Part shown: positions 35,388 through 56,904 of the stretch, piece by piece | Position numbering within the stretch: position 1 is the stretch's first letter | Layout of the letters: each line of letters begins with the position of its first letter | Position numbers and translations under genes: made by a program | Notes under the pieces: generated by a model | The model's database searches: none | What the model saw: the letters and a program-made list of their open reading frames with translations, nothing else | Told to the model about the DNA's origin: nothing | NCBI RefSeq assembly: GCF_900105475.1 | Contig: NZ_LT629777.1 | Location: 4,836,001-4,900,000 of the forward strand | DNA: 64,000 bases | Source: Pseudomonas asplenii | GTDB lineage: Bacteria; Pseudomonadota; Gammaproteobacteria; Pseudomonadales; Pseudomonadaceae | Direction of reading: 5' to 3'

Positions 35388-36782
35388 ATGATGAAGTCAG
35401 CGCGGACATCGATTAAGAACCCAGCGCGCAAACCACGTCCTAAGCCTGCGTCGAGCCAGCCGTGCGAATCGCCAGAGCCAGCCGACCCCACGGATTCCTT
35501 CGTGCCGTATCCGTTGTTTCCGCCCATTGTGCTCCTAACCGACCACCAAGGCCTGGAGCGTCCAATCAATAACGACGTCCGCGTACGGCTCGGTACCCTA
35601 GACCCCGCACTGGAAGCATTCCAAGCCTGGCGCCTCGGCATCGACTTTCTGGCCAAGCAGTGCCAACGGCCGGAATTCACCCCCAGGCACTACAAGATCA
35701 TGTGTCCAGTGCTCGAAACGATGATGCATTGGAGCTGGTCTGTTCGGCACAAGCCGATACAAGAATGGCGAGAAACGGATGCTAGGGAGTTCATGCACTT
35801 CGTCATGCGCCTACCTATGTCATGGATTTCGAGGACTGGCGGAACGCGTTACCTGCTGAAGACCAAGACGGAATTCGCTGTTAAGCCAATTAATGGCAAT
35901 TGGCGTCCGATAGTCAGAAAGCAGCTGGCGGACAATTCCGCGTCGACTTTCGCACTCGGAACTGACCAGCACCGCAGTATCTTCCTGCACGGTGGGAGGG
36001 ATTTTTTCGACTACCTATGCGCCCTGCGAATTACAACTCTAATTAATCCGTTCGGTGCCCTAAAGCCTAGAGATTTCGAGGTTCGCCAAGGGATAGCCCG
36101 GCCGACTTTCACACCGGCACAACTGGCTGATCTGATGTCTACAGCCACGTCATTGGCCCAGAACGATAATCAGTGGCAGCCATGGCTCCTCGTCGCGGCC
36201 GTGGCCATCTACTCTGACGTTCCACTGCGTGCGCTGGGGTCAACATCGGCCCTTAAATTGCGGTTTTCAAGCTTCAAAGCCGACGAGGCCGGCTCCCCAA
36301 AGGCAAGCACAGGGCAAACCTCACCGGTCTGGTTTGAGAGTCCTCACTACCCTCGCCTGCGCTATCCGCTGGCTTCTGAGTTCGCTGCCTATTTCCGCCG
36401 ATATGCCAAGTTCAGGCACAGCCAGAATTCGGATCTTTCCCCGCAAAGCCTGCTTCTGCCTTTGATAGATGGTAGTGGTGGTTACGCGAGTCCTACCATG
36501 TTCGAGCTATTCAGCAGATTCACGACCGCCATTTTGATGCGTCTGCAGCAAAGTCCGCTCGCGGAGAACGCCGATTGGCGTGGTTGCGCGCGGTTTCAGC
36601 CCGGTGCATCAATCACGTTCCTCGAGCTGAGGAAGTCGGCGAAGGCGGCTGGATGGGTGCCGAGCGCAGTGCGTATTGATGAGCTACATCAAGATGAATC
36701 TATTTGGCCAGATATTGGAATCCGAAAGCATCTGCCGGCGTCTCAGTGGCTACGCAAGCATGCAAGTGGGCCGTCGCTCTGA
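35388..36782 (+). CDS. Tyrosine-recombinase-like protein lacking catalytic residues
   Basis: This 464-residue protein starts with GAGGAG nine bases upstream. Residues about 65-140 (LEAFQAWRLGIDFLAKQC ... WRETDAREFMHFVMRLP) resemble the SAM-like core-binding domain of tyrosine recombinases. A segment around 270-300 (LVAAVAIYSDVPLRALGSTSALKL) sits where box I would be, but I see no RxxE arginine, no HxxR and no final tyrosine. It may be a regulatory partner of an active recombinase or an inactivated paralogue; RIT-type elements combine several recombinases. The assignment is tentative. Confidence 0.5.
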   Translation: MMKSARTSIKNPARKPRPKPASSQPCESPEPADPTDSFVPYPLFPPIVLLTDHQGLERPINNDVRVRLGTLDPALEAFQAWRLGIDFLAKQCQRPEFTPRHYKIMCPVLETMMHWSWSVRHKPIQEWRETDAREFMHFVMRLPMSWISRTGGTRYLLKTKTEFAVKPINGNWRPIVRKQLADNSASTFALGTDQHRSIFLHGGRDFFDYLCALRITTLINPFGALKPRDFEVRQGIARPTFTPAQLADLMSTATSLAQNDNQWQPWLLVAAVAIYSDVPLRALGSTSALKLRFSSFKADEAGSPKASTGQTSPVWFESPHYPRLRYPLASEFAAYFRRYAKFRHSQNSDLSPQSLLLPLIDGSGGYASPTMFELFSRFTTAILMRLQQSPLAENADWRGCARFQPGASITFLELRKSAKAAGWVPSAVRIDELHQDESIWPDIGIRKHLPASQWLRKHASGPSL

Positions 36783-37011: not shown

Positions 37012-37980
37012 TCACGCGGCTATCAGCAAAATTTCCCGCGCCTCGGTCGCATGCTGAAGCAGCCCAGGATGCTTCACTTCAAGCTCAATGAGATCAGCTT
37101 GATAGGTCAGAGACGGCGTCATCTGTGTTCCGTCCTGCAGGAAACGAGTCAGACCCGCGAATTGCTCATGAGTGACCGTTGACGCAACACTGCGATCGTT
37201 GGACAAAGCGTTTACCCGTGAAGCGTTGAGGCTGGCGATGTCGGTGGCAAGCTCCGTCAGGCTTTGTCGGGCGTACTTGTGAGAACCGGCCTTCAACTGA
37301 ACGTGGGACATCATCAAGCCAAGGTTTACCAATCGGTTTTGCAGTAATGAAATCTGATCGAAGAGCACGACGTTACTGGTGGCATTCCGCGAATGCCGTT
37401 CCAGGAGAAGCCTGGTGAACTGATACTGTTCATTGAACGATCCAATCAATGGCCTGAGCTGCGGAACATCACCTTCCTCGCAGAACTGCATTGCGGTGAC
37501 TAGCAGGCCCCGAAAGCGAGCCTCATCAGCGAGTAGATTCCGTTCGTGCCCCTCACTCACCAACTGCCATGTATGTGCGATCGTTTTTGATTGCTCGTCT
37601 ATTTTTTGGCTGATTTTATCGAGTTTTTTGCAAACGATGACAAAGCCTGCAGTTGTCACTGCGAGGTTGAGGCCGCTCATTACGAGATTGGCCGACTGCA
37701 GACCCTGAAGCACATTCAAGCTCTGCTGCACCTGATCCATGCCGGTTTGGAGCGACCCCAGGCCACTTGATAGGGTGGACTGCAGGCTCTGTAGGCTCTC
37801 TTGGACATGCCCTGAGTCGCCCGGAAAAAGGAGGTGCCCGACGATCTGGCCAGCCTTCTCGGTTCCCTTTGAGTGTCGGACTACGCCACCCCAAAGCGTG
37901 TAATCTCCGCTATGCAGTTTGGCCAGGACATCTGGGATATCAGGCAAGGAGCGTACAAGCGCGTCAACGTTTACAAACAT
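37012..37980 (-). CDS. Coiled-coil/hydrophobic protein, partner of YaaW-like protein
   Basis: This 322-residue protein is not assigned to a family. Visible parts are a coiled heptad region (VQESLQSLQSTLSSGLGSLQ ... VQQSLNVLQGL, residues about 60-95), one hydrophobic stretch (ANLVMSGLNLAVTTAGFVIV, about 97-116), and then a KKLDKISQKIDEQSKTI helix. The C-terminal 200 residues are helical. A helix-hydrophobic hairpin-helix layout is seen in alpha-helical pore-forming proteins, but that is only a resemblance. Its start overlaps the end of the upstream YaaW-like gene by ten bases, so the two are co-translated. Confidence 0.65.
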   Translation of the reverse strand: MFVNVDALVRSLPDIPDVLAKLHSGDYTLWGGVVRHSKGTEKAGQIVGHLLFPGDSGHVQESLQSLQSTLSSGLGSLQTGMDQVQQSLNVLQGLQSANLVMSGLNLAVTTAGFVIVCKKLDKISQKIDEQSKTIAHTWQLVSEGHERNLLADEARFRGLLVTAMQFCEEGDVPQLRPLIGSFNEQYQFTRLLLERHSRNATSNVVLFDQISLLQNRLVNLGLMMSHVQLKAGSHKYARQSLTELATDIASLNASRVNALSNDRSVASTVTHEQFAGLTRFLQDGTQMTPSLTYQADLIELEVKHPGLLQHATEAREILLIAA

Positions 37981-38675
37981 GCTTTCAGTTTCTCCGTGTA
38001 GGCTTCGAAGTCCTGGTCGTAACGTGCGCGCCGCAGCTTGGCGATTTGCAGCACGGCAGGAATGGTGATCCGGAACGCCGGCGACGAAGCCTGGTAAATC
38101 GCGAGTCCTGCGGCTCCGATAGCAAGTGGCGCTGCCACCATTGAGAGCACCCGGCCTCCTAATGCGCTGGCAAAGCCCGCCCCGCCACCAGTAGCAGCCA
38201 TACCGCCCAGGCTACCGGCAGACAACATCAGCGTTTTCACCATTTCATTTATGTAGCCAGCGAGATTGCCGCCGCTCAGATAGTCCTTGAGCGCTTCGTC
38301 TCCCATGTATTTGTCCATGGCCTGGCGGATGATGATTTCCTCAATGGCGAAAATGTCATCTTGCGCGGAGGGTTTTCCGTCCAGCTTTTTGGCGACATCT
38401 GTCGCAAGCTCGAGGTAGTCGATGCTCTCCGTTCGAAATGCGGAGGCAATGGTGTTGCTTCCGAACGCACGAATTTCCTTTTCAAGCAGGCCTGAAATAG
38501 ATTGCAAGCGGCCCTGCACCTTCCGGGTCATGATGGTTGCCTTCACGTCGCTGTCGAGGGCTACCCTGCCCTTGCCATTGTCGGTGATCAGGTCGGCCAA
38601 GACTTCCAGATCCGCTGTTGCGGCACGCGATAAGAGATCGGATATCGACCGGTCTCTTGGAACAACTGACTCCAT
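37971..38675 (-). CDS. YaaW/UPF0174 family (DUF3944-related) protein
   Basis: This 234-residue protein matches the E. coli YaaW family. Matching segments are DLEVLADLITDNGKGRVALD near the start, EKEIRAFGSNTIASAFR, and YLELATDVAKKLDGKPSAQDD. A glycine/alanine-rich hydrophobic stretch lies near 165-200, and the late PAFRITIPAVLQIAKLRRAR is the most typical segment. The family function is unknown. The start at 38675 has AGGGGG upstream; an ATG at 38693 is in frame. It is the first gene of a two-gene operon with the coiled-coil protein. Both have hydrophobic segments, so they may form a membrane complex. Confidence 0.78.
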   Translation of the reverse strand: MESVVPRDRSISDLLSRAATADLEVLADLITDNGKGRVALDSDVKATIMTRKVQGRLQSISGLLEKEIRAFGSNTIASAFRTESIDYLELATDVAKKLDGKPSAQDDIFAIEEIIIRQAMDKYMGDEALKDYLSGGNLAGYINEMVKTLMLSAGSLGGMAATGGGAGFASALGGRVLSMVAAPLAIGAAGLAIYQASSPAFRITIPAVLQIAKLRRARYDQDFEAYTEKLKACL

Positions 38676-38901
38676 GTATCCCCCTGTAAGCATTCCTGAA
38701 GTGGCGGATCATCAACGCAATGATTGCCTATGGCCAGTACGGGCGTACTGATTTTAGCCACAAGATCCACGCGTGTCTTCCCGCTGGAGAATCAGGCTGG
38801 AGCTCACTGATTGAGGAATGCAGAGCAGACGCCATGCAACGCGTTGCAGCGACGGTTGCTCCACGGGCATCATGAAATCAAACAACAATAAGGGCAGACC
38901 T

Positions 38902-39330
38902 ATGACCTCCCCGACCACGGAAATTTTCATCTTCATCCCGCAGCAGCCTCAGACCACGTATTCTCCACAACTCGGTGACAAGCTGGACAGTCAAGGGGAA
39001 TCCATCTTCCAGGCCATTGGCATTTCCTATACGATCGTGGACAGGATGATTGCCCACAACGCCAGCTGTGCGAATGCGGCTGCGGATTTCTTCGTGACGA
39101 CGCTCATGAAAGACAGTTGGTCATGGGACACGTCGTACCAGTTGGTCATGGAGACCGATTGGCAGCACCGGATGTACCGGGCCTGGAATGCCCTGAATGC
39201 CGAGAACCGCGCGAACGCAGCCGCGCTCGATTACGAGGTGTACCAAAACTACTGGCCAAACCTGGACTTTTGCGCGGATGGGTTTGAAGCGGAGATGGAG
39301 CGTTGGATCTCTGAGGTTTTGAAGCAGTAG
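38902..39330 (+). CDS. Hypothetical protein, 142 residues
   Basis: This is an acidic soluble protein starting MTSPTTEIFIFIPQQPQTTY, with tryptophan-rich helices in the second half (DSWSWDTSYQLVMETDWQHRM, ERWISEVLKQ). No family is recognised. The ATG at 38902 has AAGGGCAG upstream; in-frame ATGs at 38818 and 38872 are less likely. It is divergent from the YaaW-like gene across about 225 bases, which may share a control region. Confidence 0.6.
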   Translation: MTSPTTEIFIFIPQQPQTTYSPQLGDKLDSQGESIFQAIGISYTIVDRMIAHNASCANAAADFFVTTLMKDSWSWDTSYQLVMETDWQHRMYRAWNALNAENRANAAALDYEVYQNYWPNLDFCADGFEAEMERWISEVLKQ

Positions 39331-40163: not shown

Positions 40164-43100
40164 ATGGACGAGCAACTCGGACGCTTACACGCTTCAGCCT
40201 GCTTTAACTCGGCCTCCACTTTCAAGGAGCCGACGCTGCGCAGCAAAGCGTATGCGAATGCTGCACTCACCGAGTTTGTAAAGCTTCAACGTGAGCAGCC
40301 CGAGATCCTGACCACCCTGCTCAAGGGAGGAAATCAGGGCGCCAAACGGCTGAACACTGACCCTTACCAAGGGCTTCGTGAGGTTATCCAGAATGCTGAT
40401 GACCTGAATGCCACCTCCGTGCAATTTGGTGTACAGACTGTTCACGGCAGTAAGCAGTTGGTCATCGTCCATAACGGTTTGCCCGTGGAACTGCCTCACG
40501 TGCTACCAATGATCTACCCCTTCTACTCCACCAAGCAGCAATCAGCTGAGCTCAAAGGTCGGTTCGGTATCGGCCTGAAAACCCTAACGCAGCTCGGCGA
40601 TAATCTGACAGTCCATAGCGCGCCCTTCCATTTCGGCTCACGTGACGACCACGTGGCCATGGTGGAAGAAGCCGAGCCTATCAGGGATTTCTACGATCCC
40701 CACGCCGACCACACTATGGTCAGCGTTGACCTCTATCCAGATTATGACCTTGACTCTCTAGAAGCTTGGTTCGATGACTGGGCCCCCAGCGACCTGATCT
40801 TCCTGGATAACGTTCGCGCTATCACCTTGCTTGACCTAGATGCGGGTATCTCGCTGAAGCATTTGGCGATCCAGCAGACTCAATCCGATCGCCACTTCAA
40901 CCTAGTACTTGGCAAGCACCAGAGCCGTGTCACCCACTCAACCTTCCTGGTGGACGACGGTCTATGGGAGCGCTTCGTTTGTGAAGTGAGGGTTCCAGCT
41001 GGAAAGGCACGTGCAGCCAAGGCGACTGGCGATTTCACACCCATTGGTGTGGCGATACCGGTGAACGGGAGTGCTCAAGGACGGATCCATGTGGCGCTAC
41101 CCACCAAGATCCACACCAATGCTGCATTCTCTCTCGACGCACAGTTTGACCCCTCTACCTCTCGGGAAGACATGATTCATGGCGCGTGGAATCAGTGGTT
41201 GACCGAAGCATCCGGCCAGTTTCTAGGTGAGCTGGCCATTTATCTGGCGCAGCAACGCAATACCCTTGCTTGGTTAGCCGTTCCTGTCGGGGCGAAGACA
41301 GACAGCAGTTCGGACTGGCTCAACAAATTGTTCCATGAACAATGGAGCAAAGTGATAGAGGCCTTCAAAGCTTGTCCGACTCTCATCGATGGCCGCTATG
41401 CGCTGAGTCAGATTTCTTATTGCGATGAGTCGATCGACGGGATGCTGACAGAAGCTGACCACCTCGCGGTGAGCGGATGGCCAATGCTGCCCGAGTGGAT
41501 GCGGGACAGTGACGGGCGTTGGCGGGTCGTCCTAGAAGCCCTCTCCGTTTCACACTCGCTGGAACTCGAGGATGTGTTCGAACACTGTGAGCGATTCGAG
41601 CAAAAGTCTCCGTCATGGTTTTTGGACATGGCTTTAAAATGCCTTGAACTGGACGAGGACTACCTGCTGCTGGATTCTCAATGGGTACCACTTGCAAGCG
41701 GGCAACGTACACAAGCCAAGGCCGAAGACGAGGCCGACTCCTGGCTAACAGGGCAGCCACCCGCGATTGGATTTGCAGCCCGCCATCATCTGACAAATGT
41801 GGTTCACCCTCTTCTTCTCTCCACGCCATATGCGCCCCTCGTCGCATGGCTATCAGAGAGCGCGAATTACAAGGCAGACGTAGTCGCCCAGGACGTGCTT
41901 GAAGCGTTTGCCAGGCGCTTCTCGCAAGACCCGATTGCAGCCGATAAGCAAGACCTCCTCGATCTGCGAGACCTGTTTGAGCACGTCGACACGAAGAACA
42001 GTCAGTTGGGCCAGGAGGTGGGCGCGGCACTGCTAATCGACGCGTTCAGTCATGTTGCACTCGAGGATGGTCGATCAACCGTTACGAAGGTGCTCGCCTC
42101 CCCGACTAGCGTGTACCTGCCAGCATCCATCGCTGATTCGCAGGACACATGGTCGAAGGCGGCGGGCACCACTCCTGAGCTGCTGTGGGCGTCTGCCAGC
42201 TACGCCGAGGTGTTCAAAATCAGCAGAGCAGAACAAAGGGGCATCCAAGGCGAGTCAGTCACCACAACTCGGAAGCGAGGCGTGAAGCGATTTCTGTCAT
42301 TGCTTGGCGCCGAGGTTTCTCCTCGCCTCGTTGAGGTCGCCACGGACTCCGCACACATCGTGCTTGCCTCTCAGAGTGCAGCTCGCCGCTTCCTGGGCCG
42401 GGCGCGTGGTGGACTAGCGCGCGATTTCGTCTCGCCCGATCTTGATGCCGTCATCCGTAACATTCGCCAGAGCCCAATCCAGCCGGTATCACGGAGAGGA
42501 CGGAAATCCCGTGAGTCGGCGCAATCGTCCGCCCCCACGGCCGTTGAGAGAGCGATAGCACTTTTTCGCTGTATCGACAGCAACTGGATCACCTTCGAGC
42601 CGTACAGCAGAACCTTTGCCTACCGAGAAAGCGGAAGGAGTGATAGCTCACCAGTGCCCACTACTTGGCTCGCGAGATTGATTGATAATGCGTGGTATCC
42701 CAACTATGCAGGGACACCGTGTAGACCAACCACCCTCATTGTTGAGACGAAGGTCACGCTCGCGATGTATGAGCATCACACGGATTTTGCCAGTGGCTTG
42801 ACCGAAGCTGACGCGAATAGCGAATTTGCGCGTGCGCTGGGGATGCGCGTCAATCCGCCCGTTTCACAGTTGGTGGCGGCTCTTGAGCGTGCCAGAAACA
42901 CATCTTCATCTGACGAAGTCAGCCTGATGAGGTTATACAAGGCCCTGGCTGGCCATTGCCCACAGGGCGCCTCCACCGTCGCGCATGAGGCGATGATAGG
43001 CGACATGCAGGCCGGGAGTCTGCGTGGGAAGTTCGGCATTCAGCGTTCACATAAAGGGCTCATTGCCCCGTGCGTCACAACCGCTAGGCACAGCAAGGAG

Positions 43101-44642
43101 TGGTTCAGCATGCGAGCGGTTTTTGCCGGCAAAGACATCTTTCATGGCAGACAACCTTTCGTTCTGTATGACCGCAGCGTCACTCCGTTATGGAACGCAC
43201 TGGGCATCATTCACCCGGACTTGAAAAGCTGTATCAGAGAGCTGGAATCCTTGGCCAAGACCGCCTACGACCCCAAGCAGGACGCATTGTTGCTCGACAT
43301 CTATCGGCACATGGACAGGCAGCTGGATAAAGCGACTGCCGCAGATAGACGAAGCCTGAGCCTCCTGCCATTACGATCGGGCGATACCTGGACAACAAAG
43401 CGCCCACTGTATTTCTCACACTACTCAAACCTCAAATCCGACAGGATCGCCTTGTGGACGCCACCTTGTGCGGCTGACACCATTTCTCGATTCGTAAACG
43501 CCGCAGGGCTGGAGAGGCTCCCATTCGCTGCAGCCGCCCCTGCGATAACGAACGCGACCCCTGACGTGCTCGAGTTTCGTTTCCAAGCTGCGCTTCGCAT
43601 GCTCAAGGCTGACCTTGCGAGAGAAGATGAACGCTCCTACAAGGCGATGGAGCCCTGGAGTCGTTTCGACAACGCCCGACTCAAGATGCACCTACCAGGT
43701 CAACTCATCGTCAACGCCGCCCCAAAGGGGGCGCGGCAAATTCCAGTTCAGCTTCACGCCTATTCCGATTATTCCGGCCTCGCGGTGCATTTCGACGACG
43801 AAAAATTCATCGGGAGGAGCGAGCATGGCGGCATCGCGATCGCGGGTCTGGGAGATGGAGCGTGCATGCGTGAGATTGCGCTTGCCTGGGTGTCTGCCTG
43901 GGCTGCCAGTGAAGACAGTGAATACATTCCCGACATCAGCCTAGCGACTGATGCTGTGGAGACCAGTCTTGATACGTTGATCGCGGAACAGGAAAGGTTG
44001 AGTGGCAATAATCGTAAGCGGGTAATCAAGCGGGATGCTGGTACGATGGCTACTACGGACAGTGCTGAGCGCCCTATTCAAACCCGTAAGCTCAAGGCCC
44101 TGCCTCACGAATTCCAATTCACCGTCGAAGCCGTTGATGGAAGCGATCTCGCACACAAAGGGCCGCAGCCGCGCAAAACCAGCCCGCTGCTGAATCCATC
44201 TCCTACACCCAAAAGGCCATCTCCACCCTCGGCTCCAGAAACCGCTTACAAACAGTACTCATCAGCAGAATTGCAGACCAAGGCTTGGGCTTATTTGGAA
44301 GCTTCGATGCAGCGGGATGATGCTGTGCTTGTGGATTTACAGTCCTACAGAGGAATCGGCGCTGACGGGGCTCTGGATCAGAGCACCTTCATCGAGATGA
44401 AGTCGTTCGCCCGCGCAGCTCCTTCAGAGATCACTCTGACTGAAACCGAGTTCCGTCGCGCAGAAGCAAGCAAAGCCAATTTCTACCTAGTGATCGTATC
44501 TGGGTTGGAGGAGGGATTCGAGACTGAGCTGCGTATTTATATCAATCCTACCAAAAACCTTCCCTGGACGCCCAAGGGTCAAGTATCCATAGGTGGACTG
44601 GCTAAAGGAGCTGCCTTGGTGCTTAGGGAAACGATGGACTAA
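40164..44642 (+). CDS. Sacsin/HSP90-like ATPase protein with C-terminal DUF3883
   Basis: This very large 1492-residue protein has an N-terminal GHKL ATP-binding domain of the sacsin type: REVIQNADDLNATSVQF (N box, Asn77), QLVIVHNGLPVELPHV, and GRFGIGLKTLTQLGDNLTVHS (G boxes near 132-139). The long middle is unassigned. Residues about 1390-1490 (ALDQSTFIEMKSFARAAPSEITLTETEFRRA ... NFYLVIVSGLE) match DUF3883, which has a PD-(D/E)XK-like look (IEMKS). Proteins joining these domains recur in phage-defence islands, and the GHKL ATPase may gate a nuclease. The start has GGAG upstream. It is followed by an XRE regulator on the same strand. Confidence 0.8.
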   Translation: MDEQLGRLHASACFNSASTFKEPTLRSKAYANAALTEFVKLQREQPEILTTLLKGGNQGAKRLNTDPYQGLREVIQNADDLNATSVQFGVQTVHGSKQLVIVHNGLPVELPHVLPMIYPFYSTKQQSAELKGRFGIGLKTLTQLGDNLTVHSAPFHFGSRDDHVAMVEEAEPIRDFYDPHADHTMVSVDLYPDYDLDSLEAWFDDWAPSDLIFLDNVRAITLLDLDAGISLKHLAIQQTQSDRHFNLVLGKHQSRVTHSTFLVDDGLWERFVCEVRVPAGKARAAKATGDFTPIGVAIPVNGSAQGRIHVALPTKIHTNAAFSLDAQFDPSTSREDMIHGAWNQWLTEASGQFLGELAIYLAQQRNTLAWLAVPVGAKTDSSSDWLNKLFHEQWSKVIEAFKACPTLIDGRYALSQISYCDESIDGMLTEADHLAVSGWPMLPEWMRDSDGRWRVVLEALSVSHSLELEDVFEHCERFEQKSPSWFLDMALKCLELDEDYLLLDSQWVPLASGQRTQAKAEDEADSWLTGQPPAIGFAARHHLTNVVHPLLLSTPYAPLVAWLSESANYKADVVAQDVLEAFARRFSQDPIAADKQDLLDLRDLFEHVDTKNSQLGQEVGAALLIDAFSHVALEDGRSTVTKVLASPTSVYLPASIADSQDTWSKAAGTTPELLWASASYAEVFKISRAEQRGIQGESVTTTRKRGVKRFLSLLGAEVSPRLVEVATDSAHIVLASQSAARRFLGRARGGLARDFVSPDLDAVIRNIRQSPIQPVSRRGRKSRESAQSSAPTAVERAIALFRCIDSNWITFEPYSRTFAYRESGRSDSSPVPTTWLARLIDNAWYPNYAGTPCRPTTLIVETKVTLAMYEHHTDFASGLTEADANSEFARALGMRVNPPVSQLVAALERARNTSSSDEVSLMRLYKALAGHCPQGASTVAHEAMIGDMQAGSLRGKFGIQRSHKGLIAPCVTTARHSKEWFSMRAVFAGKDIFHGRQPFVLYDRSVTPLWNALGIIHPDLKSCIRELESLAKTAYDPKQDALLLDIYRHMDRQLDKATAADRRSLSLLPLRSGDTWTTKRPLYFSHYSNLKSDRIALWTPPCAADTISRFVNAAGLERLPFAAAAPAITNATPDVLEFRFQAALRMLKADLAREDERSYKAMEPWSRFDNARLKMHLPGQLIVNAAPKGARQIPVQLHAYSDYSGLAVHFDDEKFIGRSEHGGIAIAGLGDGACMREIALAWVSAWAASEDSEYIPDISLATDAVETSLDTLIAEQERLSGNNRKRVIKRDAGTMATTDSAERPIQTRKLKALPHEFQFTVEAVDGSDLAHKGPQPRKTSPLLNPSPTPKRPSPPSAPETAYKQYSSAELQTKAWAYLEASMQRDDAVLVDLQSYRGIGADGALDQSTFIEMKSFARAAPSEITLTETEFRRAEASKANFYLVIVSGLEEGFETELRIYINPTKNLPWTPKGQVSIGGLAKGAALVLRETMD

Positions 44643-48048: not shown

Positions 48049-48711
48049 CTAAAGCATCCCGGCTGGGCCACCACCCCGGCTGAAATCGGTCTCGCCTCGG
48101 ATTAAGCCTTGGCAAAACAAATCCCGATCAACAATTCCGACTGTTCCCTCTTTGGTCGTAGGGTCGAACGCGCACACCCTCCAAAACCCCGCGCCCCCAA
48201 AGTCCACAAAAACGGGTGTGCGGGTATGCCAGCGGTGGAATAGGCGGCTACGCCCCAGCCACTTGAAGTAGGCGTAGCCCTCAGTGGAGATTCCACTGCG
48301 TGAAAGATTGAAAAAAGAGCTGTCCAGTTCGCTGCGTGTCCCGTCGATCACCCAAACGATCCGCTTGTAGAATTGCTCTCGCGCTGTCACTTCCTCGGGA
48401 TCGATCGTCGAGCGCTGGAATTCAACTACGACACCGTGACTGGTCTTCACATCGGCGATATGGCGTTCACGGCTGATCGGGTCTTGATGCATGACCTCCT
48501 GCCATTCTGCTGGGAATCGATTCTTCCATTCCCGGTGCCAGGCCGTCTCGTTTTCCCACCACGGGTCACAGCTGAGTTTTGATCGATGTGCCCAGTGCCA
48601 GATCACATGTTTGCCACATTTGGATATCACCTCAGATTCACAAGATGGGCAAACCCCGCGCAGCTTCGGTTCGGCTTCCATTCGGGTGTCGCCCACGTGG
48701 GCATATTTCAT
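48049..48711 (-). CDS. CoiA-like nuclease-domain protein
   Basis: This 220-residue protein has an N-terminal zinc-ribbon-like segment (CPSCESEV ... HVIWHWAHRS) and the competence CoiA-type core. The core reads ETAWHREWKNRFP, then RHIADVKTSHGVVVEFQRSTI, then REQFYKRIVWVIDG. The Asp of HIADV and the ExQ of VEFQ fit a PD-(D/E)XK nuclease site. CoiA acts in DNA uptake in Gram-positives; short stand-alone versions like this are common in accessory islands with no known role. It lies between the RES gene and a gene remnant, all leftward. Confidence 0.75.
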   Translation of the reverse strand: MKYAHVGDTRMEAEPKLRGVCPSCESEVISKCGKHVIWHWAHRSKLSCDPWWENETAWHREWKNRFPAEWQEVMHQDPISRERHIADVKTSHGVVVEFQRSTIDPEEVTAREQFYKRIVWVIDGTRSELDSSFFNLSRSGISTEGYAYFKWLGRSRLFHRWHTRTPVFVDFGGAGFWRVCAFDPTTKEGTVGIVDRDLFCQGLIRGETDFSRGGGPAGML

Positions 48712-48835
48712 CTCTCGCCCTCCCTGGTCTCGCTGATTTTCCGAGCGTTTCAGTATGGATGATGGTCTTGTACTTTTCGTAGCGTAGGCGCCACCCTCAC
48801 CTGTTTGGGCTGTGCCTGCTACCAGCCCGGGCTAT

Positions 48836-50095
48836 TTATGCCTCGGGTATGGCGTTGGAAGATTCTGTTTCTTTCAGCACCTCATCCATCGTGCCCACAT
48901 TGTCTTTATCGATGGTGTGAAGAATCATGCTACCGGCCACGTACTCGATACTCAATGGATCACCCGCCTTTGCGCCGCTCACCCGGTATCCGGTTGCAAA
49001 ACGCACCGTGGATGACGTTGGCTTAGCGGCGGCATGCGAGAACAGTACAATGTTCCGCCCCTCAGCGCGTTGAGCAGAGCGAAAGATGACGCCGTCAAAG
49101 CGCGGGGAGCACTTGAGGGCCAAGTATTCGGCTACAGCTTGGGTAATCAGGTAGTTTCGTTTTTCTTCCTCATCGACTGGAATCCTTATTTCCTCGTGAA
49201 TTTTGCGAAGGAAACCTTGGCGATCAAGGTGCTTGAAGTACTCAGGGTCGAAGAAGCTTGGAATCGGCCCTAGATTAGCGCCTTCGAAGCGTTCGAAGTC
49301 GAGTACTCGAACCGCGCGGATGAGCTGGAATCGCCCACTGATGAAGCTGTCCTGTGGAAGCGGGCGCAGTTCTGCGATGCATGTCTGACGATCGAATGCA
49401 CCGTAGAATGCCGGGATTCCAGCAGGGTTCATTCTACCCTCGCCCGATACTTCTTTTGGTGGTGAACCCAGTTCAGTGTCGGGGTTGTCCCGAATCCTCT
49501 CGACCTTTTCAGCAGGACTGCGCCGCGCGCGGTAGATTGCGGGACAATCATCCGGCTTGAGGGTCTGCACGACATGGTCAGCCTCGGCTGACTCTGCGTA
49601 TTGGCCCAGGTCGTCGAACAGCCAGCTGAGAAGCTGCCTGGCCTCGTCGTTGAAGAACCGACTGCTGTGCCGCATGCCCTCCTGGATGTCGCACCACCGA
49701 TTAAGCGCACTTTTAACCCCAGCCGGACGAATGCTGTAGTGGATGGTGGTGGAAAAAATGGGCAGTGCTTCGCACTCCTCACTCAGTCCACCACAAACTG
49801 CCTGAACGATAGGTGCACCAGGGGAACAAGCGAAGACTTCGGCGACCCAGTATTTCAATGGTTCGCCGGGTGATTCCAGTCTTGAACCGTCGGAACCCCA
49901 ATGACGATGATTCCGCGCCTCCCAGATGTATTGGTCGAGAACGGCACGCGCCCGCGCAGTGATCTCGACGAGTGCGACGCTTTGGGCCATGTCACCACAG
50001 AGGCTACAGTGGTCGAGCGCCCCAGTTTCAGTGACCCATGTACTGAGAAAAGTGTCGTGTACGCATTTAAAGCACACCGCGCTCGATAACGTCAT
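48836..50095 (-). CDS. RES-domain protein with N-terminal zinc ribbon
   Basis: This 419-residue protein has an N-terminal CFKC...HCSLC zinc ribbon (residues 8-33) and a helical middle of about 140 residues. A RES domain starts near 175 (IYRARRSP, then GSPPKEVSGEGRMNPAGIP, FYGAFDRQTCIAELRP). RES toxins degrade NAD+ and use an R-E-S triad; Arg and Glu candidates are visible. Classical RES toxins are about 150-230 residues and sit next to a DUF2384 antitoxin. This long form belongs to RES proteins with an N-terminal HEPN/ribbon module. The only DUF2384 gene in the window is about 3.2 kb away. The ATG at 50095 is preferred over GTG 50110. Confidence 0.78.
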   Translation of the reverse strand: MTLSSAVCFKCVHDTFLSTWVTETGALDHCSLCGDMAQSVALVEITARARAVLDQYIWEARNHRHWGSDGSRLESPGEPLKYWVAEVFACSPGAPIVQAVCGGLSEECEALPIFSTTIHYSIRPAGVKSALNRWCDIQEGMRHSSRFFNDEARQLLSWLFDDLGQYAESAEADHVVQTLKPDDCPAIYRARRSPAEKVERIRDNPDTELGSPPKEVSGEGRMNPAGIPAFYGAFDRQTCIAELRPLPQDSFISGRFQLIRAVRVLDFERFEGANLGPIPSFFDPEYFKHLDRQGFLRKIHEEIRIPVDEEEKRNYLITQAVAEYLALKCSPRFDGVIFRSAQRAEGRNIVLFSHAAAKPTSSTVRFATGYRVSGAKAGDPLSIEYVAGSMILHTIDKDNVGTMDEVLKETESSNAIPEA

Positions 50096-50201
50096 TGAAA
50101 TCAGATCCACTCAATCAGTTGTTTTGAGCCGTCGATGATAGGGCGCTCGTTGCCCGTGGGATTGAACAGGTTTCCGGTCATTGAAGGCACGCTCAAGTCC
50201 T

Positions 50202-51953
50202 TCACGGCAGTTGGAAGCCCAAATTGACCAGGGTTGGACGCTCGCGAGGTTTCAGCGTTTTGACTGCCCAAATGAGCATGTGCCGAGGTCTTGAGCTCGC
50301 GACGTAGGCAAAACGGGCGGCCTCAGACTCACGGTTCTGTAGCCAGTCGGCCCAGTGTGATTCACCTTTGCCGCGTTTACGTGAGGACACAACCACAGTG
50401 ACATCGTGAGTCTCACCTTTGACTTGGTGAATCGTCTCGTAACGCAATGTCTCCGATTCGCCATCCTGGATATCCTGACTCGAGAGACGGATCGACACTG
50501 GCTTATCACCTTGACCACGCTTGGTGACGAGGTTGAGTCCTCTCAATTCCTGCAATTCATTAAGAATTTCATCGGGCACGAACGCCTGGTCAGGGAGTTG
50601 TCGCAGTGCGAGTTTTGCGCAGCGTACCCACGCTGACCAATTTTGATCGGAGTTGCCGGCGCCGCTGGCAACCATGAACCTCAGGCTTTGGTGGATGAAT
50701 TTACGCCAGGCCAGTTTCGACTCCATTGAGGTTGGGCAATAGGGCCCCGTCTTGGTGACCTCCAGCTTTAGCTTCCCTGCAAGCCACTGGGCGAATGTCC
50801 TGAGACTCACTTTGAGATCGCTCAGGCTCCCTGAGCTGGCGCCAATGCAGGCGACTGCAAGCAGCTCAATGCCTTCAAAGGTCTTCCCGTTGCGCAGGCG
50901 CTGAAGGCTTGCATGCCCTCGGGCAACCAGTACCACCTCATTGTATGCAGCTGTCAGGTTTCGGATCGTAGGCAGCAGCTCGGATGGACAACTTTCGTAC
51001 TCGAGAATTTTGGGCTGGATGGATGCGATTTCAGGATTCCCCGAAACCTTCCCGGTACCGACGATGTTGCTGCAGAGGTCGACTATGGCCTGGCCGCTGC
51101 GCCAATTGGTGGTCAGTTCGTACTGCTTGAACTGCAGTACGCCCATGAGCTTGTTGACGTTGGCCGGGTTCGATTTGCGGAACCCATAAATCGATTGGTT
51201 CAGGTCACCGACGAAGTGAAACTTGATCCCAAAGCCGCTGAGTTTGCTCACGATTTGCAGTTGTTCAGCGGAGAGATCCTGGCACTCATCCACGATCACA
51301 ACGGGAAACCGACGGGCAACTCGGGAGAAGTAGCGGTCAAACTGGTGATCTTTGAAGGCCATAAGCGCCAGCATATCGATGTCACCATGGGTAGCGTAAC
51401 CACCGAGCCAGAACCGCCTCTTCGTGGCTACGAGATCCCGATGCATATTGTCAGTAACCTCCACGGCGTTGAGCTGATGATCGAGCGCTCGATCGCCGGT
51501 CGAAAACTTGAAGCGCCCCGCCTCCAAGTCATAGTTGTACCGACAGGCTGAGATGCGGCGACCACAAATCCGTTGCTGGGTCTGGAAGATATTCGCTTCC
51601 TTCTCAAGGATACGGATACGGAAATCGCCATCCTTGCCTGGATAGCCCGTCAGCTCGCTGGCGATGCTGGCCACCAACCTAGTGAGAACAAAGCTGTCGA
51701 AGGTAGAGATACTGTGGGGTAAGCCGATAGGCCCGCCCAAGTACTTGTGCACCCTACTCCGGAGCTCGTCGGTCGCACTGTTAGAAAACGTGAGAACAGC
51801 GATACCCGAAGGCGAACGTGACCACACCTGAATGGTTTGCGAGACCATTGCAGCCACCACCTCGGTCTTGCCACTACCTGGGCATGCTTTCAGGTAGCTG
51901 TGCTGATCAAGCGGCGCTGCGATGTATTCCAACTGCTCCTTGGTGAAGTTCAT
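50202..51953 (-). CDS. gajB: Gabija helicase GajB (UvrD-like)
   Basis: This 583-residue SF1 helicase has Walker A in ACPGSGKTEVVAAM (residues 23-30), motif Ia VLTFSNSATDELRSRV, motif II VVIVDECQDLSAEQLQIV, and motif III GDLNQSIYGFR. TNWRSGQAIVDLC and the late IHQVKGETHDVTVVV (motif V) follow. It starts 43 bases after the stop of an OLD-family ATPase-nuclease gene in the same direction, which is the GajA-GajB layout of the Gabija anti-phage system. In Gabija, GajB binds the GajA tetramer and is thought to process nucleic acid that triggers cleavage. Confidence 0.88.
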   Translation of the reverse strand: MNFTKEQLEYIAAPLDQHSYLKACPGSGKTEVVAAMVSQTIQVWSRSPSGIAVLTFSNSATDELRSRVHKYLGGPIGLPHSISTFDSFVLTRLVASIASELTGYPGKDGDFRIRILEKEANIFQTQQRICGRRISACRYNYDLEAGRFKFSTGDRALDHQLNAVEVTDNMHRDLVATKRRFWLGGYATHGDIDMLALMAFKDHQFDRYFSRVARRFPVVIVDECQDLSAEQLQIVSKLSGFGIKFHFVGDLNQSIYGFRKSNPANVNKLMGVLQFKQYELTTNWRSGQAIVDLCSNIVGTGKVSGNPEIASIQPKILEYESCPSELLPTIRNLTAAYNEVVLVARGHASLQRLRNGKTFEGIELLAVACIGASSGSLSDLKVSLRTFAQWLAGKLKLEVTKTGPYCPTSMESKLAWRKFIHQSLRFMVASGAGNSDQNWSAWVRCAKLALRQLPDQAFVPDEILNELQELRGLNLVTKRGQGDKPVSIRLSSQDIQDGESETLRYETIHQVKGETHDVTVVVSSRKRGKGESHWADWLQNRESEAARFAYVASSRPRHMLIWAVKTLKPRERPTLVNLGFQLP

Positions 51954-51996: not shown

Positions 51997-53901
51997 TCAT
52001 TCGGCTTGTTCCTCGATCCCACAAGCCCAGAGGACGGCTAAGCGGATGTATTCCGGCACGATAAAGTCATCCCTCACGTTAGCCAGCGCGTCCGCGAATG
52101 CCTGCGCATAGAACCCTTTGCCAATTTCTTTGGTTTCGATTCGATCAAGCATGTCATTCGCGTACGGCGCCCTCTCCCCTGAACTCATGGTCGAGTAGTC
52201 CAGTCCAGCCCGCCTTGTCAGCTCCCTCACCACTTCCCCGCCTTGCACAGGCCAGAGAGTGGCCGCAGCCGTCGACATCAATCTGAGGTTGTTACCCTCC
52301 ATCGCGATGTCGTACTCGAAGGTCTTGTACTTACCTACGAACAACCTGCCGAACTGCGACTGGCTGATCGGCCCTATCAATGCCAAGGCCGGATTGTCGC
52401 CTACAAGGAGGTCATCATCATGGGGAAGAAACGGAACGGGGATTTCTTTACCGTCATCGCCTGCAACCGACCTGATAGATTTCGGTGGGTCATTGTCGGT
52501 AAGCCCTGCACACCTGATTGGGACATTCTCGCCTGGCTGGCCGCCCGTGACATCGCAAAACAGCTGCATGAAATGATTGAAGTAGATGCCACCAAGATTG
52601 ATCACCGAGACGCCGTAGTCGTCCAGGCAGTTCTTCCCCTCTCCGTAGGGGCGCAGGACAATACGCGCCAGCTCTGGCAGCACCATCGCCTCAGCGATTC
52701 CTTCTACGAGCAGTGCCCCTTTGGAGAAAAGGAGGTTGGATTTTGTGACGTCCAACCAGCGATCCACAAAGCGGCGGCTGTGCTCAGGAAGGCCGCACGC
52801 GCTGAGCGGTATTGCTACTGGCCTTGCGTCATTTGAAATGTGGATGAGGTGATCCAGGGAGACGGCGGCAGAGATGACCGTTGAGTGCGTGGTGATGATG
52901 ACCTGGATGCCACGTTCTTCAGCCACCGTTTTCAAATGCCGCAGCAGGCGCAGTTGAAGCTGAGGATGAAGATGCGCCTCTGGCTCCTCGATCAACAGGA
53001 GCCGCAGATAGGTCTCTTCGCCTCGATCCTCTTCTTCCTCCAGGATCAGTTCAGCCAGGATCGACGCGATGTACAGGAGGTTGTTGTAGCCAAGGCTGTT
53101 CTCCTCCAGCGATCGGAACTGGGTCGTGTCAGCCTCGCTGAGGTTAGGGAAGTACAGAAGCCGCAAGCCCTCCACGATCCGGGAGAAGCTGACTTCTGAG
53201 AACTGAATCATGGTGCCCTGAGAGAGATTGAGCCCCAGCGCTGCCTTCAGGTTGTCTCCGATTCGCTGATTGGCTTGTTTGATCGCAAATTCGTCGCTCT
53301 GTGAAAGCTCACGATTGAAGTTTCCGACATGCTCTTCCAGCGGGTGAAGAGTCTGTGCCTTCCTGGCCTCAGCGAGCTCTTTGCGGCAGAGGGCCTTCAT
53401 GAGCCGGGCAAGGCGGGACTGGCGACCTTCGCGCAACTTGTTCTCGGCATCGCGCAGCGGAGGTAGGTAAATACAATGGATGTAGTCCAGCGTCTCGGAC
53501 TCGAACGGTTTGGCATGCTCGTGCCCCGCGTAGGTGTGGTGCCTGAAGCGCCCGCGAGACTCTTGATTGCGGGCCTCAAAAGTCAGCTTGGCCTCGTCGT
53601 GATTTCCACACCAGGATTCGAACGCAATGGCGTCCTGATCATCCAGACCTGAAAACGTCGCCTGAATCTGGATGCTTTCAGCAGCGACCGCGCCCGGCTC
53701 AAAACCCCGGTAGAAATCGCGCTCACTAATGATTCGCTTGCCTGACTCCGAGTCGTTGAAGAGCTGGCGCACTGCACTGACCACGCCAGTCTTGCCGGCC
53801 CCATTCTCTCCCACGAGCACGTTCAGCCCGTCTCGAAATTCGATGGTGAACGGCTCACCAAAGCATTTGAATCCAGTGACATCCAATTGCCGTAGATACA
53901 T
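51997..53901 (-). CDS. gajA: Gabija endonuclease GajA (OLD family ATPase-TOPRIM)
   Basis: This 634-residue protein has an ABC-type ATPase head: VLVGENGAGKTGVVSAV (Walker A near 31-38), LLIEEPEAHLHPQLQLRLL (signature/Walker B), and IITTHSTVIS. A TOPRIM nuclease domain follows (LLVEGIAEAMVLPELAR, then CAGLTDNDPP), whose Glu and Asp-x-Asp bind metal. This is the OLD/GajA architecture. GajA nicks or cuts phage DNA when nucleotide levels fall during infection. The ATG at 53901 (MYLRQLDVTGFKCFGEP) is the natural start for this fold. gajB follows at once. All key motifs are intact, so the system should be functional. Confidence 0.9.
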   Translation of the reverse strand: MYLRQLDVTGFKCFGEPFTIEFRDGLNVLVGENGAGKTGVVSAVRQLFNDSESGKRIISERDFYRGFEPGAVAAESIQIQATFSGLDDQDAIAFESWCGNHDEAKLTFEARNQESRGRFRHHTYAGHEHAKPFESETLDYIHCIYLPPLRDAENKLREGRQSRLARLMKALCRKELAEARKAQTLHPLEEHVGNFNRELSQSDEFAIKQANQRIGDNLKAALGLNLSQGTMIQFSEVSFSRIVEGLRLLYFPNLSEADTTQFRSLEENSLGYNNLLYIASILAELILEEEEDRGEETYLRLLLIEEPEAHLHPQLQLRLLRHLKTVAEERGIQVIITTHSTVISAAVSLDHLIHISNDARPVAIPLSACGLPEHSRRFVDRWLDVTKSNLLFSKGALLVEGIAEAMVLPELARIVLRPYGEGKNCLDDYGVSVINLGGIYFNHFMQLFCDVTGGQPGENVPIRCAGLTDNDPPKSIRSVAGDDGKEIPVPFLPHDDDLLVGDNPALALIGPISQSQFGRLFVGKYKTFEYDIAMEGNNLRLMSTAAATLWPVQGGEVVRELTRRAGLDYSTMSSGERAPYANDMLDRIETKEIGKGFYAQAFADALANVRDDFIVPEYIRLAVLWACGIEEQAE

Positions 53902-55953: not shown

Positions 55954-56904
55954 ATGGGCAAAGCCGATCTGTACCTGAAGGCTGGAGCCCGGGAGAACAC
56001 TCGGAAAAGCTACCGAGCAGCCATTGAGCATTTCGAGATGGACTGGGGTGGCTACCTGCCTACCACGGGTGACGGCATCGTCCGCTACCTGGCCAACTAC
56101 GCCGGGCATCACTCGATCAATACACTCAAGCAGCGGCTCGCGGCGCTATCCCAATGGCACATCACTCAAGGCTTTCCAGATCCAACGAAGACGCCAGACG
56201 TCCGACGGGTGCTCAAAGGTATTCGAGCTGTCCATCCAGCCAAGACAAAGCAAGCTGCCCCTCTTCAGTTGAGCCAGCTGCAGCAAGTTGTGGGCTGGCT
56301 AGATACCGAAGCAAATGGCGCTCACCATCGAGGCGATCACAAGTGTGAGGTTCGGCACAGGAGATCAATCGCCCTGGTCTTGATCGGGTTCTGGCGTGGC
56401 TTCCGAGGTGACGAGCTCGCTCGTCTAGAGATCGAGCACACCCACGCGGTGTCTGGGGAAGGCATTTCATTCTTTCTTCCGTACACCAAGAGCGATCGCG
56501 AGCATCAGGGTGCGACCTATCACACGCCGGCGCTTAAGATGCTCTGCCCTGTGGAGGCATACATCAATTGGATCACCATTGCTGGCCTGGCCAGTGGGCC
56601 GGTGTTCAGGGGGATCGATCGCTGGGGCAATCTTTCAACCGAGGGAATCAATCCTCATAGCCTGATTCCGATGTTGCGCAGGATCCTTGCAGAGGCGGGT
56701 TTACCTGCTGCCATGTACAGCAGCCATTCCCTTCGGAGAGGCTTCGCAACATGGGCGACGGCGAATGGGTGGGACATCAAAGCGCTGATGACCTACGTGG
56801 GGTGGAAGGATATGCAGTCGGCGCTGCGCTACATCGACGCGAGCGCTTCCTTTGCGGGACTGGCGGTGGGGAAACGTGGATCTGAGCTGCAGATTGGCCG
56901 GTAG
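55954..56904 (+). CDS. Tyrosine recombinase (island integrase)
   Basis: This 316-residue integrase has an N-terminal SAM-like domain (ARENTRKSYRAAIEHFEMDW) and a full catalytic domain. Visible are the box I Arg (GFWRGFRGDELARLEIEH), HSLRRGFATWA (His and Arg), the GW of MTYVGWKDMQSA, and the Tyr nucleophile in ALRYIDASASF. All catalytic residues are seen. It has no DUF4102 arm domain, unlike the integrase at 9021. It is divergent from the KfrA-like gene and lies at the edge of the defence gene block, so it is the probable mobility gene of that block. Confidence 0.9.
   Translation: MGKADLYLKAGARENTRKSYRAAIEHFEMDWGGYLPTTGDGIVRYLANYAGHHSINTLKQRLAALSQWHITQGFPDPTKTPDVRRVLKGIRAVHPAKTKQAAPLQLSQLQQVVGWLDTEANGAHHRGDHKCEVRHRRSIALVLIGFWRGFRGDELARLEIEHTHAVSGEGISFFLPYTKSDREHQGATYHTPALKMLCPVEAYINWITIAGLASGPVFRGIDRWGNLSTEGINPHSLIPMLRRILAEAGLPAAMYSSHSLRRGFATWATANGWDIKALMTYVGWKDMQSALRYIDASASFAGLAVGKRGSELQIGR

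Follow-up and report, generated by a model that had tools for sequence, protein, structure and literature searches.

A probable Juk immune locus in a defence island of Pseudomonas asplenii

Within a 64,000-nucleotide stretch of the Pseudomonas asplenii genome (contig NZ_LT629777.1, positions 4,836,001 to 4,900,000; hereafter the window), two overlapping genes of the reverse strand are recognised end to end by PADLOC models for the components of Juk (jumbo phage killer) and are designated here as jukA and jukB (Table 1). The initial annotation had considered them as an undescribed membrane-acting defence or toxin pair. Its assignment of a coupled pair to a defence family withstood the comparative analysis, while the claims of novelty and of a toxin did not: models for both proteins were already present in PADLOC-DB of 2023, the system was published in 2025, and family scans with Pfam, NCBIfam, PADLOC and PHROGs gave no support for a toxin.

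Table 1. Juk genes and neighbouring features annotated in the window (positions are those of the window)
Feature	Position	Strand	Description	Model or match
jukA	37971..38675	-	YaaW-family protein, putative sensor, 234 residues	PADLOC JukA PDLC04112
jukB	37012..37980	-	Putative membrane effector, 322 residues; an N-terminal motif, a single hydrophobic stretch, a long helix and a C-terminal domain of helices	PADLOC JukB PDLC04114; PDB 9jht
jukA stop/jukB start overlap	37971..37980	-	Exactly 10 bases	
TmtA-type defence protein	40164..44642	+	Neighbour, outside Juk	PDLC03968, 1626 bits; PF13020; NF047352
GajB of Gabija	50202..51953	-	Neighbour	PDLC00142, 1184 bits
GajA of Gabija	51997..53901	-	Neighbour	PDLC00096, 980 bits
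Tyrosine recombinase (integrase)	55954..56904	+	Neighbour	PF00589; phrog_1 integrase

The two proteins and their family assignment

The open reading frame (ORF) of jukA extends over 37971-38693 and permits a product of 240 residues from the start at 38693 or of 234 residues from that at 38675. The latter is preferred, since it is shared by most of 17 aligned relatives, opening with MExVVPR-like residues, and since AGGGGG lies immediately 5′ of its ATG. With this start, residues 1-234 of JukA are aligned with positions 1-234 of PDLC04112 (E 2.8e-106, 352 bits), and residues 1-322 of JukB with positions 1-323 of PDLC04114 (E 7.7e-152, 503 bits). The architecture initially proposed, namely a ten-base overlap, hydrophobic segments in both partners and a single such segment plus a helical tail in the 322-residue protein, was reproduced: both ORFs are present, JukA bears a Gly/Ala-rich hydrophobic stretch at residues ~168-197, and JukB has one hydrophobicity maximum in the 19-residue windows ~97-118 (best Kyte-Doolittle mean 1.95) and is predicted to be mostly helical over residues 108-302, with 108-168 forming one helix.

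Close relatives of JukA are labelled “YaaW, UPF0174 family” by the source databases, and NCBIfam PRK10236, which we take to be YaaW, matches it with an E-value of 2.8e-11, far under the cut-off of this family. The best NCBIfam match of JukA is named “acidic protein MsyB”, and this name was not adopted. In PHROGs JukA matches one family of unknown function, in the Pfam scan it had no match, sequence searches of the PDB found no relative of it at E <= 1, and Foldseek returned no match at E <= 0.001 for its predicted model. For JukB, three sub-cut-off Pfam matches (best E 0.0045) were read as coiled-coil noise. Its family profile retrieves the JukB of PDB entry 9jht at E 5e-4, and Foldseek with the predicted model places this solved JukB at ranks 1 and 2, with low TM-scores; the two proteins are linked by family profile and predicted fold only, a direct sequence match being absent. 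By these matches the window’s JukB may have the fold of the solved one.

In a set of 5.8 billion proteins, 83 homologues of JukA and 163 of JukB were collected at E <= 0.001, i.e., more than chance would provide. The nearest named loci for JukB belong to Pseudomonas (91-93% identity). Tblastn against plasmids revealed JukB in two records, a full-length relative in Pseudomonas luteola (42.5% identity) and one covering 43% of the length in Candidatus Chlorohelix (34% identity); distant blastn of the pair against plasmids gave no match. Among phages, tblastn found JukA in two unannotated faecal records, in one of which (MT835507.1, positions 1373-2047) the whole protein is covered at 32% identity, possibly representing a phage-borne JukA.

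Conservation of the pair and its overlap

Co-occurrence of the two genes was followed in a sample of 398 genomes of the genus, the window’s own genome included (genomes and loci are denoted below by G and L numbers). The JukA model PDLC04112 matches 103 of them, many of these matches being weak, partial and inside longer open frames, and the JukB model PDLC04114 matches 12, nine at full length (447-515 bits) and three weakly. The nine genomes with full-length JukB are exactly those in which JukA scores highest (277 bits or more), and in each of them the coordinates put the two genes side by side. Among the three weak JukB matches, one has a JukA-like partner (G185) and two have another partner (G069 and G277). 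Outside the genus the pair is found under neighbouring locus tags in Pigmentiphaga aceris (FXN63_11195 and 11200) and Xanthomonas campestris (LL972_20840 and 20835).

Of 11 other loci in which the junction was measured, 10 have the same overlap of 10 bases; the loci are partly non-independent (L054 and L056 represent the same junction, and L003 and L005 apparently correspond, by coordinates, to genomes G011 and G081). In the remaining locus, L059 of G185, the overlap comprises 20 bases, a value depending on the chosen start codon. From this constancy of the junction we infer translational coupling of jukA and jukB. The question posed by the initial annotation, whether the pair is conserved together elsewhere, is thereby answered positively. 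In G185 (L059, also L016), apart from the overlapping JukA-like and JukB-like genes, a second YaaW-like protein is encoded upstream, with a C-terminal CxxC zinc-ribbon-like pattern noticed by eye, and DruH of Druantia III lies close by.

Genomic surroundings and an alternative partner of JukB-like proteins

The pair sits in an ordinary defence island, as the initial annotation had assumed: the TmtA-type gene, Gabija, the integrase, a transposase and a KfrA-like protein are among its neighbours in the window. The TmtA-type product, presumably Tiamat, possesses a sacsin-type ATP-binding domain and a NO VEIN C-terminal domain; a literature search on TmtA found no paper, and one on YaaW yielded a single paper that seemed unrelated. 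Beside Gabija, CoiA-like and RES-domain proteins are encoded (48049-50110, reverse strand). A 464-residue protein (35388-36782, forward strand), convergent with jukB, was not matched by any family of Pfam, NCBIfam, PADLOC or PHROGs; next to jukB there are relatives of it in L003, in part in L004 and as pieces in L005, and one relative (55% identity) carries the UniRef name Integrase. A short protein without a family match (38890-39330, forward strand) is divergent from jukA and has relatives upstream of jukA in L002 and L003 (75% and 87% identity).

The association with defence islands is descriptive, drawn from a scan of 20 ORFs that make up part of the flanks of eight other loci (PADLOC, E <= 1e-15). 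Clear known defence genes were detected in four of the eight: Shango in L051, a type I restriction enzyme in L054, Gabija in L058 and Druantia III in L059, the last being a locus of the weak JukB type. For L053 the scan produced a partial match to PDC-M26A, and the flanking ORFs scanned in L002, L055 and L057 had no PADLOC match. The surroundings of JukAB largely differ between loci. In a further genome (L052) the pair stands directly beside a divergently oriented relative of TmtA (65% identity to that of the window), so that JukAB and TmtA may travel together; relatives of the window’s KfrA-like protein and integrase are also near JukAB there. Linkage of P. aeruginosa JukAB to mobile elements is reported in a published survey (PMC10896350).

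A different arrangement was revealed in the two genomes where the weak JukB match lacks a JukA-like partner. In G069 (L062:4503-6180) a JukB-like protein of 328 residues overlaps by 8 bases an upstream partner of 232 residues, in which two hydrophobic stretches are seen by eye. Profile-profile comparison relates this protein to the window’s JukB family (probability 96.7%, E 3.5e-10, 202 columns), while it finds no relation between the partner and JukA (probability 4%); LeoBC of PADLOC matches the partner weakly (E 6.4e-5). Upstream of the pair lies an ORF whose match to BrxC is confined to the C-terminal part of the latter. Downstream there are a PDC-S01 candidate, an ORF in which a short PglX-like piece precedes a match to the C-terminal half of PglZ, and BrxL at full length. 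The BREX locus of G069 thus looks rearranged or broken. The same pair with an 11-base overlap and a partner 35% identical to that of G069 is present in G277 (L063:7924-9727), where no BREX match was found among the four L063 ORFs scanned. The PDLC04112 search listed no JukA match for either genome. Searches with the partner detected it in 2 of 398 genus genomes and in no plasmid record; the JukB-like profile run against 194 genomes of the order recovered only the window’s own JukB (E 2.5e-5). This arrangement, present in two genomes, suggests that effectors of the JukB type can be triggered by a sensor other than JukA; the combination with a partner not related to JukA, in one case amid BREX remnants, may be the newer finding here. 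A broader generalisation, by which JukB would represent a modular membrane-effector family serving more than one kind of sensor, with JukA in the window’s clade and the unrelated partner in two genomes, can be offered only tentatively and is rather doubtful at present.

Interpretation and comparison with known systems

Profile family identity, gene pairing, the conserved overlap, the island context and the best Foldseek matches of the JukB model are observed, and together they point to a Juk immune locus acting as the published system does, with a probability that we put at roughly 0.88. In the literature consulted (PMC13282480, PMC12571901 and PMC12931631) Juk is reported to combine a sensor with a pore-forming membrane protein and to stop giant nucleus-forming phages early; the first of these papers, a 2026 review, cites Cell 2025;188:2127, and in the second, silencing of jukA in strain PA14 is stated to render it susceptible to phiKZ. 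Sensing, recruitment, pore formation and phage range are ascribed to the window’s copy from that system. On this model, JukA would sense a nucleus-forming jumbo phage early in infection, at the EPI vesicle, and would recruit JukB, whose hydrophobic stretch may insert into this vesicle and open pores; infection would be halted early and the phage DNA degraded. As reported in PMC12735699, cloned P. aeruginosa JukAB conferred no clear resistance to 15 phages, none of which was activating in the authors’ opinion; this fits a narrow system and shows that a Juk locus by itself is no proof of activity.

The alternative that survives best, although improbable, is a diverged branch of Juk that keeps the two-part scheme, in which JukA would sense another phage structure or JukB would permeabilise the host inner membrane, leading to abortive infection. 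It draws on the distance in sequence between the window-clade JukB and the solved one, and on the JukB-like proteins with an unrelated partner, which imply that the effector need not be bound to one sensor; clear homology of JukA between the clades and the N-terminal motif of JukB common to both argue against it. Far less credible is a toxin-antitoxin pair, in which the YaaW-like protein would hold JukB, as a membrane toxin, in check: the close overlap of the genes and the hydrophobic stretch of JukB would suit it, but scans of Pfam, NCBIfam and PHROGs matched no toxin or antitoxin family, and both proteins fit the Juk models end to end. A housekeeping YaaW protein neighboured by a membrane protein by chance is equally hard to accept. 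YaaW-like sequences are abundant, to judge by the 103 genomes with JukA matches, many of them weak, but the conserved pairing already contradicts this reading: the nine strongest matches adjoin full-length window-clade JukB, and the overlap is fixed in largely different surroundings.

With the Juk reading retained, the window holds a Pseudomonas copy of a system already described, in surroundings of a familiar type; the supposed novelty is removed, and the locus is placed in a recently explained immune system. The window-clade JukB, being far from the solved one, would be a useful comparison for the recognition and opening of the phage vesicle by JukB, and the analysis draws attention to JukB-like proteins that possibly depend on a different sensor.

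Among known relatives, E. coli YaaW is akin to the window’s JukA inasmuch as the JukA model matches, among 14 control genomes, that of E. coli only, a match seen at genome level, with the gene not shown. Published Juk shares with the window a YaaW-type sensor and a membrane effector encoded by adjacent genes, end-to-end PADLOC models and a defence-island position. It differs in that the window’s JukB belongs to the PDLC04114 clade, whereas the solved JukB fits the PDLC04115 clade by sequence. In the same genus, PDLC04115 matches 4 of the 398 genomes, and a JukA match adjoins in all four. JukB of this type has 298 residues in the four aligned proteins and little further sequence likeness to that of the window, but JukA is homologous by profile comparison, the gene order is again JukA then JukB, and the N-terminal motif of JukB is alike over 39 columns.
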